Below are positions 1 through 41,833 of a stretch of 47,162 nt of DNA, piece by piece. Source of the stretch: a virus; IMG/VR virus record IMGVR_UViG_3300043427_002326, positions 1 through 47,162 of that record. One strand, written 5' to 3'. Within the stretch, counting starts at the first letter, position 1. Each line of letters starts with the position of its first letter. The position numbers and the translations under genes are program-made. The notes beneath the pieces were generated by a model that was given only the letters and a program-made list of their open reading frames with translations, was not told the DNA's origin and made no database searches.

Positions 1-17
1 CTTTGCACCTGGCTCAT
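1..17 (-). CDS. 5' end of a leftward gene cut by the window edge
   Basis: An ATG at 17-15 overlaps the TGA of the gene ending at 14 as ATGA, the junction style used through this leftward unit. Five codons (MSQVQ) are visible before the edge. If base 1 is joined to base 47162, the frame continues through 13 codons into the gene that otherwise appears to start at 47140. The two pieces are therefore probably one gene of about 109 codons. Function unknown. Confidence 0.5.
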
Positions 18-256
18 TTGACCTCCTCGGTAGTTTCGCTGGGAAGCAGGGACTCCATCCACTGATCCCACGACATTTTCAGGAATTGCTCCAGCTCGAC
101 CAAGCGCTCTAGCTGCTTTTCCTCGTAGTTGGTGTTTAGACCCATCCCTTGGTAACGGATGATCTGCAGCTGGAGCGAGTGCCTGGCGTGGCCAACGGCG
201 TAGTACCAAGGACTTAGGTCTGTGTTGGCGACCTTGGCTTGGAATGGTTCGTACAT
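14..256 (-). CDS. Hypothetical protein of the leftward early unit
   Basis: An 80-residue protein I do not recognise. It has aromatic residues near the N-terminus, an acidic and Leu-rich middle (about residues 44-60, likely helical), and no membrane segment or cysteine motif. It lies downstream of the primase/helicase gene and the 359-700 gene, after a terminator-like hairpin at 309-340. Its stop overlaps the next start as ATGA. The 102 bp upstream contain that hairpin and GC-rich inverted sequence but no clear promoter. Confidence 0.65.
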   Translation of the reverse strand: MYEPFQAKVANTDLSPWYYAVGHARHSLQLQIIRYQGMGLNTNYEEKQLERLVELEQFLKMSWDQWMESLLPSETTEEVK

Positions 257-358: not shown

Positions 359-700
359 CTACTCTTGGACGCCAAGCGCGGCTGGTTCGTACTGGGTCAG
401 CACGCATACGTCAGCGCCTTGGCGGAGAGCCGTGCCAACGATGTAGGCGAACTGTTGCGGGGCGTCGTCGGACTCCTGGATCTGGTACTCCTCCACCTCG
501 TAGGTCATGCCCTTGCGGTACCAAGAAACCCGGACCACCGCAAGCAGCTCGTAGGGAATGTCACCAACGGTGTAGCCCAAGGTGGGCTTCCTAGGGCGTT
601 TCGGCTGGGGTGGTTCCGGTTTCACAGGATCTCTCCAAAACACCCACGCGACAACCCGCATGAGCCCTAGGAAAAAGTTAGGCGGGATGAACTGGCCCAT
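359..700 (-). CDS. Hypothetical protein with N-terminal membrane segment
   Basis: About 113 residues. Residues 7-22 are hydrophobic (Phe, Leu, Val, Trp), suggesting a membrane anchor. A Pro/Arg/Lys-rich linker (about 23-42) follows, then a soluble domain that is unassigned. ATG at 700 overlaps the TGA of the primase/helicase gene as TGATG, so I prefer it to the GTG at 709. The C-terminal part, with YTVGDIPYELLAVVRVSWYR and a later YIVGTALRQG, looks like a small beta-rich fold. It is co-transcribed with the primase/helicase. Confidence 0.65.
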   Translation of the reverse strand: MGQFIPPNFFLGLMRVVAWVFWRDPVKPEPPQPKRPRKPTLGYTVGDIPYELLAVVRVSWYRKGMTYEVEEYQIQESDDAPQQFAYIVGTALRQGADVCVLTQYEPAALGVQE

Positions 701-3117
701 CAGTCCCACATCCGTGCGGCTTCCTGCATGAGCTGGTCCAATTCAGCCGCAGATCGCTCATTCCCCTTTGGGGATACATCCAAAACCTGTCCCACTGGGG
801 CAGATTCATTGGTATCACTGGGACTAGCAGTGGGACAAGGCGAGGGGTTGTCCCACTGTGAGCTGGGTTCTGCTCCAGTTACGTCCGAGCAGTGGGACAC
901 GTCCAAGGGCTGTCCCACTGTACTTTCCAGTCCCTGACTGTGTTCTTCCCCAGTGGGACACACATTTATAGACTTTTCACGCGAGGTAATTGCTCGATAA
1001 AAAGCAGTAGGAGAACCACCCCCCTTACTGGGGCGATTTTCAGCAACTTCGATCAACCCCCGCGAGATCAAACGCTGGAGCGCCTTGCGGATGCCGGCGA
1101 CACTTCCACCGCACAAAGGGTCCGCAGCAAGGTCAGAGCGGCTCACAGAGCGCGGATAGACGGCTCTAACGCGCTGGAGCACCCGATCCACCACCGATGC
1201 AGGCCCGGCGCTGTCGGTATCGACCTCCATGTAGTCGGCCAGAGAGAAGGTGAGGTCGTTCTCCAGCTTCATAAGAAGCTTGGAGCCATCACGACCAGCC
1301 CTGGATTTTTCGACGGTGATGAGTCGAGCGTTGTAGCCGGTCTGCTCAACCTGATTTCGATCAGGCCGCCGAAGACCCCACACCTCGTCTACGGCATCCC
1401 TGATGGCGGTGCTGCCCCGGAATCCACCGGTCTTGTTGGCGTGGTGGATCAGCAGGATGGTGCAGGCCGGGAAAAGCCGCCCATTGTTGTTGGCCAGCCA
1501 GTAGATCGGGCTCGCAAACTCCTTTTTGTTTTCGTCGAATGCCGAACCCCTGCTGCAGCCAGTGATCGAATCGATGATCACGAGCTTCGGCTTGTGCTTC
1601 TCGATCAGCTTGACGAAGCGGTAGTACCAGTTCAGGTCCCACCCCATCACCACCGTCACGGGATCCGACGACTGGAACTCCAGATCACGAAGCTGCTGCT
1701 GAACCTGAACTTCGGACTGGTCGCCGTTAAGGATCAAAACCGGCCCGGCTTGCACTGGAACAAGATCACCCCGCACTGAGAACGGAATCCCACGCGCCAC
1801 GTGCTTGGCGATGGTCCAAGCGGACATGGATTTGCCATCACCACCAGCACCGTGAATCATCACGGTGCCTGGGCAAGGCAGCAGATCAGGGATCAGGTAC
1901 TCAAACTTCAGGTCTTTGTTGAGCAAGCTTTCCATCGCCATCTCGTCATCTTGCTGCTCGAACTGCATCTGAGCGATCAGCAACCGCTCCAGCGCCCCAG
2001 CATCTCGATAACCAGCTTCCAACGCCAAAACATTCATGGCGTGCGCCGCTTCGGCGGGGTTTTGAATCTGCTGAATCTCTTTCGCCCGCTTGATGACTTC
2101 GGCGTAGGTGATGACAACCTGCCGAATCCGCGTGACGTTATCCGCCTCAACAGTTTCAACAACCTTTCGCAAATCTTCCGAAAGCCACATGCGGCCCGGA
2201 AGCTGCTGGTCCGCCATCCAAAAGAGGGTTCCGAGGCTGACTGGCCCTTTGCGAAAGGACTTCCAAACCTCCTCGCATGGATTGCCGTCTGCCCAATCCT
2301 GTGAAAATTCAGGGTCTTCCGCCGACCAAGCGGACCAAAGCGTCAAACCAAGGTCAGTTGGCAACTCCGAGTGGATCGCCATCCCCACCTTGACCCAATG
2401 ATCCCGGCTGCCATTGCCCTGCCCCGGAATCACCTTCAGCGCCGACTGAATGATCTCAGCCACCTCAGCTGGATCCCGATCCGAAAAGTCCAGCGCCTTT
2501 CGGTTCTTAATGAAGCCGCCGTCCTGGATCTCCTTACCGGCGTGATCACGCATCTCAGCCAGCAACCACTCAGGGGCGTCAGGAATCGCCTCCAAGTCGC
2601 CTTCAAAGCCGTATTGCCCTTCTGGTGCCTTCCCATCACTGGAGCCCGGATAAGCCCCGTAGATGACGCCCTGACGGCCCCAGAGCACCTCGTAGCCCGC
2701 TCCGGTATCTGACAGGCCAAAACCCTTCACCGAGCCCCACAGGGCCTCTGGAACGCGGAACAGGTATTTCGCCGCATTGGCCTTGGTCGAGGTGATAACT
2801 GGAGCACCCTCCAGCGACTCACCCCACTTTTTCTTGAGACGACTGAGATTCCGATCCACATCGAGAATCACGAGTCCCATGCTGCGACCGCCGGTGAATA
2901 CACCGACTGCCTGGAACACCTCAGGCTTGCGCTCGATCTGTAGTGCCACATCCGACGGCGCCATCACCTGGTGGTGGCTGCGCTCTAGCGGCGTCTTGCC
3001 TTTCGAGATTTTCCCGGACTGGATCGCCTGATCCTTGGCGTAAATCGGTGCATACGCCATTCCCACAGGCAGCTGGCGTACAAAAGCCAGCAGGTCCTGC
3101 GTCTTACCTTGCGACAT
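700..3117 (-). CDS. Prim-pol / RepA-like helicase replication protein
   Basis: An 805-residue protein. The N-terminal part (about 30-195) resembles bifunctional primase-polymerase domains, with LVILDVDRN supplying a DxD metal motif near residue 82 and a GYEVLWGRQGVIYGAYP stretch. Around 225-305 there is a PriCT-2-like region (GNGSRDHWVKVGMAIHSE). From about 410 there is a RecA/RepA-type ATPase with Walker A GAGGDGKS near 420-428 and a Walker B-like KLVIIDS. A winged-helix-like segment lies near 650-715. The tail after about 715 is low complexity and carries the decamer array at 788-960. Its likely role is initiation, primer synthesis and unwinding at the phage origin. It is divergent from the SSB-like gene across a 142-bp regulatory gap. 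Confidence 0.9.
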   Translation of the reverse strand: MSQGKTQDLLAFVRQLPVGMAYAPIYAKDQAIQSGKISKGKTPLERSHHQVMAPSDVALQIERKPEVFQAVGVFTGGRSMGLVILDVDRNLSRLKKKWGESLEGAPVITSTKANAAKYLFRVPEALWGSVKGFGLSDTGAGYEVLWGRQGVIYGAYPGSSDGKAPEGQYGFEGDLEAIPDAPEWLLAEMRDHAGKEIQDGGFIKNRKALDFSDRDPAEVAEIIQSALKVIPGQGNGSRDHWVKVGMAIHSELPTDLGLTLWSAWSAEDPEFSQDWADGNPCEEVWKSFRKGPVSLGTLFWMADQQLPGRMWLSEDLRKVVETVEADNVTRIRQVVITYAEVIKRAKEIQQIQNPAEAAHAMNVLALEAGYRDAGALERLLIAQMQFEQQDDEMAMESLLNKDLKFEYLIPDLLPCPGTVMIHGAGGDGKSMSAWTIAKHVARGIPFSVRGDLVPVQAGPVLILNGDQSEVQVQQQLRDLEFQSSDPVTVVMGWDLNWYYRFVKLIEKHKPKLVIIDSITGCSRGSAFDENKKEFASPIYWLANNNGRLFPACTILLIHHANKTGGFRGSTAIRDAVDEVWGLRRPDRNQVEQTGYNARLITVEKSRAGRDGSKLLMKLENDLTFSLADYMEVDTDSAGPASVVDRVLQRVRAVYPRSVSRSDLAADPLCGGSVAGIRKALQRLISRGLIEVAENRPSKGGGSPTAFYRAITSREKSINVCPTGEEHSQGLESTVGQPLDVSHCSDVTGAEPSSQWDNPSPCPTASPSDTNESAPVGQVLDVSPKGNERSAAELDQLMQEAARMWD
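788..960. repeat. Six alternating copies of TGTCCCACTG (iteron-like array)
   Basis: TGTCCCACTG occurs exactly at 788-797, 849-858 and 911-920. Its reverse complement CAGTGGGACA occurs at 828-837, 890-899 and 951-960. Start-to-start distances are 40, 21, 41, 21 and 40 bp, close to 4 and 2 turns of B-DNA. Two complete inverted pairs (828-858 and 890-920) have 11-bp spacers, and the pattern repeats every 61-62 bp. The array lies inside the 3' end of the primase/helicase gene. Its copies are read in two different codon phases, so the conservation is at DNA level. Likely an origin or iteron array, or an operator; function not shown. Confidence 0.85.
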
Positions 3118-3145: not shown

Positions 3146-3178
3146 ACGGCCCCGCAGCTCCCGCTGTAGGGCCGTTTT
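3146..3178 (+). terminator. Long hairpin with T-tract between divergent replication genes
   Basis: ACGGCCC (3146-3152) pairs with GGGCCGT (3169-3175), enclosing a second stem CAGC/GCTG with a TCCC loop, and TTTTCT follows. It has the form of a rightward intrinsic terminator, yet no rightward gene precedes it. A TAGACT box at 3120-3125 could start a short transcript ending here. It could instead be an attenuator, an insulator or an origin structure. Confidence 0.55.
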
Positions 3179-3185
3179 CTCATGG

Positions 3186-3217
3186 TAGCCACTGGGTCAA
3201 TACCGTGTTACTGTGTA
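3186..3217 (+). promoter_or_regulatory. Extended -10 promoter of the SSB-like gene with dyad
   Basis: TGTTACTGT at 3206-3214 is an extended -10 (TGn followed by TACTGT). A weak -35, TAGCCA, lies at 3186-3191 with a 17-bp spacer. The -10 is covered by a small dyad, TTAC-TGT-GTAA (3208-3218), matching the core of the dyad at 41804-41818. The expected transcript would start about 35-40 nt before the ATG at 3260. Confidence 0.6.
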
Positions 3218-3259
3218 AGACGTTGGCACCCCTGCCGACCACACAAAACACCTAAAAAC

Positions 3260-3841
3260 ATGGCTTTCCTTTCAAAATCCGCATCCGCAGCCGTTACCGG
3301 CAACAGCACCGGCGGTGGTTACCTCAGCCTGAGCAAGCTTCCCGATGGAGGATCCGTCCGCTTCGCTTTACTCACTGACGAACCTCTGGAGTTCTACGAA
3401 GCCTGGGGTGCCGCCAACGGAACCAACAAGCCCTTCCGCTTCGACTTCGAGCCCACCTATGAGGACGTGGTTGCCGAAATGGGCGAGTTCGAGCCCCGCG
3501 AAGGACGCGGCGGCCCCGGCACCGCAGACACCAAATTCGCCATCGCCTGCCCCGTCTACAACTACGAGTCCGGCAAAGTCCAAGTCCTGCAAATCACCCA
3601 AAAGTCCATCCTGAAAGAGATCGACCAGATCTCCCAGATGGAGGATTACTCCAACCTGCTGGAGTGGGACTTCACGATCAGCAAAAAAGGCAGCGGCCTG
3701 CTCACTGAGTACACCGTGCGCCCAGTACCCCGCAAGAAAGGCAGCCAAGAGCACATCGACGCCGCCTGGATCGAGGCCAAATCCGAAGGTTTCGACCTCA
3801 CCCGCCTGCTGAGCGGCGGAAACCCCTTTAAGGCCGCCTGA
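3260..3841 (+). CDS. Putative single-stranded DNA-binding protein
   Basis: A 193-residue protein starting at MAFLSK; upstream in-frame codons would extend into the promoter. It has a GSVRFALL beta strand near residue 30, an aromatic-rich centre, and LEWDFTISKKGSGLLTEYTV near 133-152, a pattern of small phage SSB-like proteins of OB-fold type. The C-terminus is not strongly acidic, unlike bacterial SSB. It lies opposite the prim-pol/helicase and upstream of a RecB-like nuclease, which supports a role in replication or recombination. The assignment rests on resemblance and context, not on a diagnostic motif. Confidence 0.6.
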   Translation: MAFLSKSASAAVTGNSTGGGYLSLSKLPDGGSVRFALLTDEPLEFYEAWGAANGTNKPFRFDFEPTYEDVVAEMGEFEPREGRGGPGTADTKFAIACPVYNYESGKVQVLQITQKSILKEIDQISQMEDYSNLLEWDFTISKKGSGLLTEYTVRPVPRKKGSQEHIDAAWIEAKSEGFDLTRLLSGGNPFKAA

Positions 3842-16191: not shown

Positions 16192-16754
16192 TGGCAAGAG
16201 ATTTCAAAAACCTGATTAATGACGTAAAGGAGCTAGTTAGCAATTCTGCTAGACAGTCTGCAGTGGAAATTATGAACACTCTGGCGCAAAAAGGGCCTGC
16301 GTATTCTGGTCAATTTTCTTCTGCTTGGTACGCAGTAGAACCAGGGCAAGAACCTGGAGGCCCTCGTTCAAACGGAAATAATGTATATAAGTACGACTTA
16401 CGCAACGTACCCAAGGTAAAGTTTCGCACCGGAACGTATTACGAAATAGTCAATGGCGCGAGCTATGCAGCCCAAGCTCTTGATTTAGAGGAGGGACGTT
16501 TTCGTACACAGTACGATTCAAGCGGAAACATTAAAGAGCCTGTAAAAGATCCAGTTTCCGTCGGTAAAAGGACAGGCTCTATTCGAGGTCAGGTATCCAG
16601 CGGCGAGGGCTTTTCAGTCAGTACAGCACCTCTTGACTGGTACGTTACTTACACAAGTGGCGGTGCAATGCGGCGCGATTTAGCCAACGGGGTAACAATA
16701 GGTTTCCGCCAAGGTCCTAAAGGCGGCAATGCCCCCGGCACAGGATTCGGCTAA
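16191..16754 (+). CDS. Tail completion / neck protein
   Basis: A 187-residue protein from ATG 16191 (TGATG overlap; a GTG at 16188 is the alternative). It has an N-terminal helix (DFKNLINDVKELVSN), then GPAYSGQFSSAWYA, as in HK97 gp10-like or minor neck proteins, and a loop-rich basic C-terminus with a GTGFG end. Base and codon use are visibly AT-richer than in flanking genes, suggesting a separate origin. Its stop overlaps the next start. Confidence 0.6.
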   Translation: MARDFKNLINDVKELVSNSARQSAVEIMNTLAQKGPAYSGQFSSAWYAVEPGQEPGGPRSNGNNVYKYDLRNVPKVKFRTGTYYEIVNGASYAAQALDLEEGRFRTQYDSSGNIKEPVKDPVSVGKRTGSIRGQVSSGEGFSVSTAPLDWYVTYTSGGAMRRDLANGVTIGFRQGPKGGNAPGTGFG

Positions 16755-18131: not shown

Positions 18132-18473
18132 ATGCCGGTTCCTGTACGCGCAATCGACCGTCTCCGCAAGGCCGCCAACCTGGAGCCCGTCAAAAAAGTA
18201 GTAGAGCTGTCTGACGGCAGCACATTTGAAATGTGGGTGGCACCGCTGACGATGGCCGAGCGCGAACGCGCCCAGAAGCAAGCCAAATCCGACGACGCCA
18301 ACGCCTTCGCCCTCCAACTGCTTATCGCCAAAGCACTGGACGAGTCCGGCGCCAAGCTTTTTAGCGCTGGTGAAGTGGATGTGCTGAAGAACGAAGTCAA
18401 GGACAAGGATCTTCAAGCCTTGATGCTGGCAATTTTGACCGACGACGCCGAGCCCATCGACCCAAAAGCCTGA
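18132..18473 (+). CDS. Tail assembly chaperone, short form (gpG-like)
   Basis: A 113-residue helical protein (IDRLRKAANLEPVKK, MAERERAQKQAKSDDANAFALQLLIAKAL) in the usual place between the tube and tape-measure genes. Translation normally ends at TGA 18471-18473. The heptamer CCCAAAA at 18461-18467, in the phase C CCA AAA, lies two codons before the stop and allows a -1 shift into the downstream frame. The short and extended forms act together in coating the tape measure during tail assembly. Confidence 0.85.
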   Translation: MPVPVRAIDRLRKAANLEPVKKVVELSDGSTFEMWVAPLTMAERERAQKQAKSDDANAFALQLLIAKALDESGAKLFSAGEVDVLKNEVKDKDLQALMLAILTDDAEPIDPKA

Positions 18474-40924: not shown

Positions 40925-41228
40925 TCCTTTTCTCCACGAGTTTGAGACGCCTACGGGCCGTTTCACGCGGCCCATTTTTGGCACGAGCCAGCTTAGGTTT
41001 TTTCGCCGCCGTATTCGGCACCTCAACCTTGCAATTCGGGTAACGGTTTTGGGCAAACTCAATCGCCTGCTGGAGCGACTCAGCCCGCACCAAATCCCGC
41101 ATAGCACCCTGCCCTGGCAACCAGATCTTCAGCTCGAACAGCTGAGCTTTTTCCGAACTGGTGCGCGAACGACCCTCACCGAGCCGCAGCTCCGGGTCCT
41201 GCTGTTCCTGGAACGGTACTACTTCCAT
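40905..41228 (-). CDS. Hypothetical protein with helical core and basic tail
   Basis: A 107-residue protein. The middle (FELKIWLPGQGAMRDLVRAESLQQAIEFAQNRYPNC-type) is a strand-helix-strand unit seen in small cyanophage proteins. The C-terminal third is rich in Lys, Arg and Pro (AKKPKLARAKNG). The start overlaps the preceding gene by 10 bp. Possibly nucleic-acid binding; not shown. Confidence 0.6.
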   Translation of the reverse strand: MEVVPFQEQQDPELRLGEGRSRTSSEKAQLFELKIWLPGQGAMRDLVRAESLQQAIEFAQNRYPNCKVEVPNTAAKKPKLARAKNGPRETARRRLKLVEKRNEPADR

Positions 41229-41434
41229 GACCGGGGATAGGCGGGTTCATCGACGCTATGAACAGCAACAGGGCTGTTAGTGCACTGAGCAACAGTTCGC
41301 GCCGCAGCGACAGCGCGTTCATACGTGACCCACGAGGATGCATCCTCCTTGGATGCGGTGAAGCCAATTCCTTTACCAGGGCCGTAAACCGCCGTAACCC
41401 AGCGATCCTCGACCATGACGACATAGCGGGTCAT
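41219..41434 (-). CDS. Hypothetical small protein
   Basis: A 71-residue protein beginning MTRYVVMVEDRWVTAVYG, a beta hairpin, then a WVTYERAVAAARTV helix and a short C-terminal strand. Compact alpha/beta fold without cysteine pairs, of unknown family. The 77-bp gap upstream contains TACTGTGT on the other strand (41449-41456) and a TACACG box in its own orientation. Confidence 0.6.
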   Translation of the reverse strand: MTRYVVMVEDRWVTAVYGPGKGIGFTASKEDASSWVTYERAVAAARTVAQCTNSPVAVHSVDEPAYPRSWK

Positions 41435-41511
41435 TGCCCCTTTGCGTGTACTGTGTGACTCTAGTGCACTTTCCTAGCAACGGACAGACTGTAACGACAA
41501 TCGGCTGAGTC

Positions 41512-41787
41512 TCATGTGTCGCTTTTTGATACTGACCCTTCTTGCTTGGAGCGCATCCTTCCCTCAACCCGCCGCTTCACCGACTCTCGCCACGCAGCTT
41601 CATCAGCAGCCTGAGCAGCCTTGTATTCCGAAGCCGGCAATGCCTTCTCAAGCGCCGCATAAACCATTTCCCGCAACAGCGCAGTCACCTTCTTGTTTTC
41701 CGCCAGGGCAAGCTGCTCGGCCAACTTGTACCGGTGTGGGTCAAGCAGCAGCTGGCAGTAGTACTTGTTCCCGTGGTTCAGCGGCAT
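41512..41787 (-). CDS. Ribbon-helix-helix-like regulator
   Basis: A 91-residue protein. YYCQLLLDPHRYKLAEQLALAE (about 8-29) gives a beta strand followed by helix 1, and KKVTALLREMVYAALEKAL (about 32-50) gives helix 2, the RHH (Arc/CopG) pattern for a dimeric DNA-binding protein. The C-terminal part is charged and helical. Its own promoter is overlain by the dyad TGCTAC-TGT-GTAGCA (41818-41804), so autoregulation is plausible. The SSB-like gene's promoter carries the same dyad core. Confidence 0.65.
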   Translation of the reverse strand: MPLNHGNKYYCQLLLDPHRYKLAEQLALAENKKVTALLREMVYAALEKALPASEYKAAQAADEAAWRESVKRRVEGRMRSKQEGSVSKSDT

Positions 41788-41803: not shown

Positions 41804-41833
41804 TGCTACACAGTAGCACAATGAGACACAGTA
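41804..41833 (-). promoter_or_regulatory. Extended -10 promoter with dyad operator and repeated half-site
   Basis: Leftward TGCTACTGT (41818-41810) is an extended -10. It lies inside a perfect dyad, TGCTAC-TGT-GTAGCA. CTACTGTGT occurs again 18 bp upstream (41834-41826), making a direct repeat. The start codon at 41787 is about 18 nt after the expected transcript start. Confidence 0.65.

Follow-up and report, generated by a model that had tools for sequence, protein, structure and literature searches.

Does the palindrome over the promoter of a small RHH-like gene in an uncultured virus act as an operator for the product of that gene, and is the same operator shared with the distant promoter of an SSB-like gene, as a first-pass annotation had proposed? 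The window analyzed here is the whole virus record IMGVR_UViG_3300043427_002326 (47,162 bases), a member of a freshwater/aquatic, widespread, uncultured phage group with little functional annotation. The gene order is common to the relatives, in circularly permuted form. One unit reads leftward, from the primase/helicase-type gene via genes for dCTP deaminase, HNH endonuclease and a DNA polymerase of family A to the RHH-like gene and its downstream neighbor, and a rightward unit begins with the SSB-like gene and an exonuclease. The genes of immediate concern are as follows.

700-3117, minus strand: primase/helicase-type gene
3260..3841, plus strand: SSB-like gene, with a corrected start (MAFLSK)
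41219..41434, minus strand: gene next downstream of the RHH-like gene, hypothetical, 71 aa, with its own promoter
41512..41787, minus strand: RHH-like gene, 91 aa
45964-46359: HTH-like protein gene, within the leftward unit

The start of the SSB-like gene was placed at 3260 rather than 3182 because relatives align from 3260, which puts the site discussed below in front of the gene rather than within it. The RHH-like gene was found in every related record of at least 34 kb examined except G018, which is broken at this locus. Its product is encoded in more than 100 IMG/VR contigs, and no annotated phage record in the collection searched contains a relative. The bacterial genomes searched yielded two stray MAG contigs only, labelled Verrucomicrobiota and Microbacteriaceae; these are probably phage contigs binned with their host, and the labels were therefore not used for host inference. 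Terminase matches are spread over many phages, cyanophage S-2L included.

At the promoter of the RHH-like gene, three elements can be discerned.

41804..41818, minus strand: dyad TGCTAC-TGT-GTAGCA (TGCTACTGTGTAGCA), conserved in the form TGCTA-N5-TAGCA
41810..41815, minus strand: -10 box TACTGT of the RHH-like gene, with TG one base upstream, that is, an extended -10 (TGCTACTGT)
41825..41833, minus strand: second copy of TACTGTGT (TACTGTGTC), 18 bp upstream of the dyad

Thus, the originally described anatomy holds: a perfect dyad overlaps the extended -10, and the repeat is present 18 bp upstream. The first nine bases of the dyad are themselves the extended -10 (TGnTAnnnT), and the dyad reaches to about -1, with GTAGCA placed between the -10 and the start, a sequence that is required by no generic promoter rule known to us. 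Conservation was assessed in 119 distinct RHH upstream regions out of 218 sequences; the site TGNTA-N4-(G/T)TA occurs in 118 of these, as does the extended -10 at a suitable distance. When 89 distinct 49-mers are aligned with TG-N-TA and T(10) as the anchors, whose columns are accordingly imposed, the unanchored T(8), A(14), A(16) and A(19) are each present in all 89 sequences and G(12) in 80, and, with two letters allowed in each, G(9) is found in 89 and A(11) in 88. Because these non-imposed columns are fixed or nearly so, the half of the dyad outside the -10 is kept as well. The bases immediately upstream of the dyad vary freely, and the four usable fourfold sites in the RHH coding sequence, which served as a control (mean IC 0.63), are far more variable than the dyad columns. 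In distant clades, where the RHH proteins are 60-70% identical, the dyad is retained and the flanks have diverged. The upstream copy is kept in several clades and gone in others, its 18-bp distance being held in close clades and in L252-L264; in the clades around L231-L251 and L320-L342, the dyad persists after loss of this copy, which identifies the dyad as the essential part.

The symmetry of the dyad is mostly TGCTA/TAGCA. In one clade, both halves are altered in a matched double change (TGATAC-TAT-GTATCA), but imperfect symmetry is frequent, with a left half TGCTAT or a right half TAGGA or TATGA. Given unmatched changes in several clades and a matched one in a single clade, covariation is suggestive only. 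Furthermore, the conserved block runs beyond the dyad, as AGAnTAGA, to +21, which counts against a simple 15-bp operator, since that would leave this block unexplained. With these qualifications, a conserved inverted repeat over the gene's own promoter, the feature expected of an autoregulatory phage repressor, is found at the RHH-like gene, and the comparison gives good support to an operator over its -10, very probably an autoregulatory one.

The first-pass annotation called for a genome-wide scan and considered that a dyad at chance frequency would undermine the proposal. Allowing at most one mismatch, TACTGTGTA occurs 8 times in the window versus 5.6 expected, an ordinary number, whereas exact copies number 3 versus 0.1 (Markov simulations); one of the three, at 16505, lies inside an ORF, agrees with chance expectation and was rejected as an operator. 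Perfect 6-3-6 dyads are not rare either (17 versus 13.3 expected), and about 1.3 matches to the RHH dyad at 12 or more of its 15 positions are expected by chance. Counting TACTGTGTA alone is uninformative and, with the window counts near expectation, the case rests on conservation instead. Across 25 related records, TACTGTGTA is found 43 times, about 35 of these at three promoters, those of the RHH-like, SSB-like and next downstream genes; TA[CGT]TGTG is present at the three upstream regions in 73-100% of records, the median for the remaining 30 regions being 0%. The exact TACTGT is one of ten 6-mers conserved in at least three regions and, hence, is not decisive by itself. A Sigma-70 consensus scan lists none of the three promoters, all of them being without good -35 matches. 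The suggested comparison with related phages, which extended to more than 100 contigs, bears out the full dyad at the RHH-like gene and adds a conserved ACAGTA element at 41449, but retains only the left part of the motif at the SSB-like gene.

For the protein itself, an AF2 single-chain model, of the monomer only, is of low confidence overall (pLDDT 65.9), with helices at residues 17-29 and 34-49; segment 9-13, where the RHH strand would lie, is modelled as a helix, again at low confidence. Within Foldseek's own shortlist, to which the structural comparison was confined, the best matches among solved structures are mostly RHH domains (PutA, Arc, CopASO and TacA2, Z 3.9-4.5), with YiiF and ParG further down; the scores of the RHH matches overall are modest (Z about 3-4.5, Foldseek E 3-9). 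Histone-like structures appear as well, which we take to reflect a common helical arrangement. There is no match to a Pfam, PHROGs or NCBIfam profile, and short divergent RHH proteins often escape curated profiles; a PDB sequence search gave no meaningful match. Across 29 distinct N-termini, K8, Y10, Q12 and L14 are invariant and alternate along the putative strand, C11 is invariant too, and positions 9, 13 and 15 vary, mostly among hydrophobic residues. Such alternation of conserved residues is the pattern expected of the DNA-facing side of an RHH strand, here a putative one, and the invariance of these residues parallels that of the TGCTA/TAGCA half-sites. With low confidence, then, the protein would resemble Arc/PutA-type RHH domains.

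The SSB-like gene presents a different picture. The relevant features lie in the interval between it and the divergent primase/helicase-type gene.

3147..3177, minus strand: conserved stem-loop close to where the primase mRNA is expected to begin
3182..3187, minus strand: proposed -10 box TACCAT of the primase/helicase-type gene
3206..3218, plus strand: SSB promoter core TGTTACTGTGTAA, with the extended -10 TGTTACTGT
3208-3218, plus strand: SSB dyad core TTACTGTGTAA, with the longer form TGTTACTGTGTAAGA at 3206-3220
3222..3239, plus strand: stem-loop GTTGGC..GCCGAC, where the SSB mRNA is expected to begin

The core that had been reported over the SSB -10 at 3206-3218 is indeed there, but the dyad proper spans 3208-3218, and its form TTAC-TGT-GTAA is shared by some relatives only. 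All 69 distinct SSB upstream regions contain TGNTANTGT and an extended -10 TGnTAnnnT at a suitable distance; additional SSB loci are mostly concordant, with TGTTAGAGT in three more distant ones. Thus, the left part, TGYTANTGT, is conserved, whereas the right half, GTAA in the window and some relatives, is elsewhere GTTA, GTCA, CATA, GCAA, TACA or others, so that a palindrome with both halves conserved at this gene was not found. In each of 24 records, a matrix built from the RHH sites places the RHH site first among about 90,000 positions, which is partly expected because that site trained the matrix; in the window, the second rank is the RHH site reversed and the third, the best non-self site, is that at SSB. 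Masking of the five promoter positions (TGnTAnnnT) takes the SSB site down to rank 533 in the window and to a median of 498 in relatives. Nevertheless, hexamer positions 4-5 (TG) at SSB are invariant save in the three more distant loci, whereas the inner bases of the primase -10 in the same alignment vary (IC 0.63-1.39), which hints at an extra constraint. The constraint together with the free right half makes a half-operator possible and leaves a shared palindrome unsupported; the resemblance appears to be mostly that of an extended -10, perhaps with a half-site.

The two divergent -10 boxes are separated by 23 bp in 55 of 55 distinct upstream regions; in the distant relative L346, the distance, counted manually, is 34 bp, about one helical turn longer. 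Judging by this spacing, and given an 18-bp spacer, the SSB core reversed (GTAACA) likely falls at the primase -35. GTCAA in the same interval was rejected as a -35, its distance to the SSB -10 shifting by one base while the 23-bp inter-box distance is fixed. The SSB stem-loop begins about 7 nt past the SSB -10 and is paired in all cells in 11 hand-picked sequences, with compensatory changes (GTTGGC/GCCGAC versus GTTGCC/GGCGAC), which speaks for both the -10 assignment and the start site. The stem-loop at 3147-3177 is less likely to be a plus-strand terminator, no rightward gene terminating there, than a 5' stem of the primase mRNA; each of the divergent mRNAs would then begin with a hairpin.

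A near match noted earlier at 41449 proved to be more than that.

41449..41457, plus strand: TACTGTGTG, reading CACAGTA on the gene strand, directly downstream of the -10
41458..41463, minus strand: -10 box TAGAGT (TAnnnT) of the gene at 41219-41434

This element, placed immediately past the -10 of the next gene, is nearly invariant: of 118 distinct upstream regions, 102 contain ACAGTA (TACTGT on the opposite strand). Among the 16 exceptions, manual reading shows 12 to be without intergenic sequence, RHH codons reaching the ATG; of the others, L255-L257 retain ACACAG and L251 differs. When 82 distinct 30-mers are aligned on ACAGTA, every one of them has TAnnnT, itself unanchored, at an invariable distance. 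Phages of the L243 and L252 types have TACTGT as the -10 itself, which gives the inverted repeat CTACTGT-TGC-ACAGTAG. The matrix trained on the RHH sites does not single out the 41449 site. The ACAGTA element is distinct from the -10 of the next gene and so offers the strongest indication that a factor besides sigma reads the core; control of 41219-41434 by the RHH protein is likely. In L320-L342, L247-L248, L264 and L267, the next gene abuts the RHH-like gene, and its own promoter and the ACAGTA element are lost.

Further likely promoters came to light in the same comparison. Upstream of 18132-18473 (plus strand), a conserved terminator is followed by TCCGCTACA[C/G]TA, with TACACT/TACAGT as the likely -10; upstream of 14-256 (minus strand), a conserved TGTGTGCAACACTAAGGGC followed by a G+C-rich repeat likely marks another promoter of the leftward unit. 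TACTGTG is scattered about 150-600 bp upstream of TerL in G003, G005, G006, G010, G011, G013, G024 and G025, but was dismissed as a shared site, its position varying among relatives and the motif being absent there from the window.

What could these observations amount to? Considered as a whole, autorepression by the RHH protein through 41804-41818 appears to us the best explanation, and a reasonably probable one. From the positions and conservation of the elements and the weak fold resemblance, we infer the identity of the binder, repression and its timing. An RHH oligomer on the dyad would overlap the extended -10, block RNA polymerase and lower expression of its own gene, with the second core 18 bp upstream perhaps adding cooperative binding. 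The reversed core just past the -10 of the next gene would probably bring 41219-41434 under the same control. At SSB, TGYTACTGT would be a promoter element and perhaps also a weaker half-operator, and, as the core also covers the likely primase -35, its occupancy could lower both early units. Of the original proposal that the RHH protein could repress both its own gene and the SSB-like gene, the first part seems likely, with the dyad on the -10 and the RHH-like protein adjoining it; the palindrome invoked for the second part is not borne out, in view of the variable right half and the masked rank, and the chances of RHH control of SSB stand about even. The broadest reading, in which the RHH protein is a master switch of the early programme, governing its own gene, the next gene and both divergent replication units through a single half-site, the SSB -10 and primase -35 sharing bases, strikes us as rather unlikely.

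The most serious competitor is that TGnTAYTGT is simply the extended -10 that the host sigma favors, and that the RHH-like and SSB-like genes share no operator, a quite possible account that falls short of probable. TG-TA---T is present throughout at both promoters, TAC-type -10s recur at other likely phage promoters, and the free right half and drop in rank on masking at SSB are what it predicts; yet, it leaves unexplained the TAGCA conserved beyond the RHH -10, the ACAGTA at 41449, which follows a separate -10, and the fixed SSB positions 4-5 compared with the varying inner bases of the primase -10. Alternatively, another factor might use the dyad and the 41449 element as operators, either the HTH-like protein, whose gene belongs to the same leftward unit, or a host regulator. 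We consider this improbable: the dyad is fullest at the RHH-like gene and accompanies it throughout, the 45964 protein matches HTH segments weakly and, to our knowledge, the cyanobacterial LexA box, which may not be that of the host, differs from the core. That the repeats are accidental and conserved through recent common descent only might be argued from the near-expected counts of one-mismatch 9-mers and 6-3-6 dyads in the window, but is highly implausible: in clades whose RHH proteins are 60-70% identical, invariant columns adjoin others that vary freely, and fourfold sites vary much more.

Autorepression by a viral RHH protein would be of an ordinary kind. Autogenous regulation of arc is known in phage P22 (Youderian et al. 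1982, as listed in PMC2629481). Arc (and Mnt) of P22 is a small phage RHH-type protein, as the protein here is predicted to be, and the best fold matches include Arc structures, but it governs the antirepressor region of a temperate phage; the present protein has no sequence match to Arc, a different operator, and a gene at the end of a replication-gene unit. SvtR of SIRV1 and AvtR are viral RHH proteins that repress their own promoters and bind further viral sites via imperfect inverted repeats (PMC5569661). The likeness is a viral RHH protein, here a predicted one, with an inverted repeat at its own promoter; the archaeal systems differ in their TATA/BRE promoters and operator, and no sequence relation is established. 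The RHH antitoxins and plasmid regulators CopASO, TacA2 and ParG represent the fold class of the best structural matches, but no toxin partner was identified beside the present gene, and the context is phage replication. Thus, the protein family and the operator would be new members of a familiar type.

Confusing promoter with operator bases is the usual pitfall of findings of this sort, and the comparison keeps the two apart. It also contributes a family of RHH-like proteins for which there is no curated profile, along with a conserved candidate site. This phage group thereby gains a testable regulatory circuit, consisting of a candidate regulator, an operator with half-sites, and two further candidate targets.
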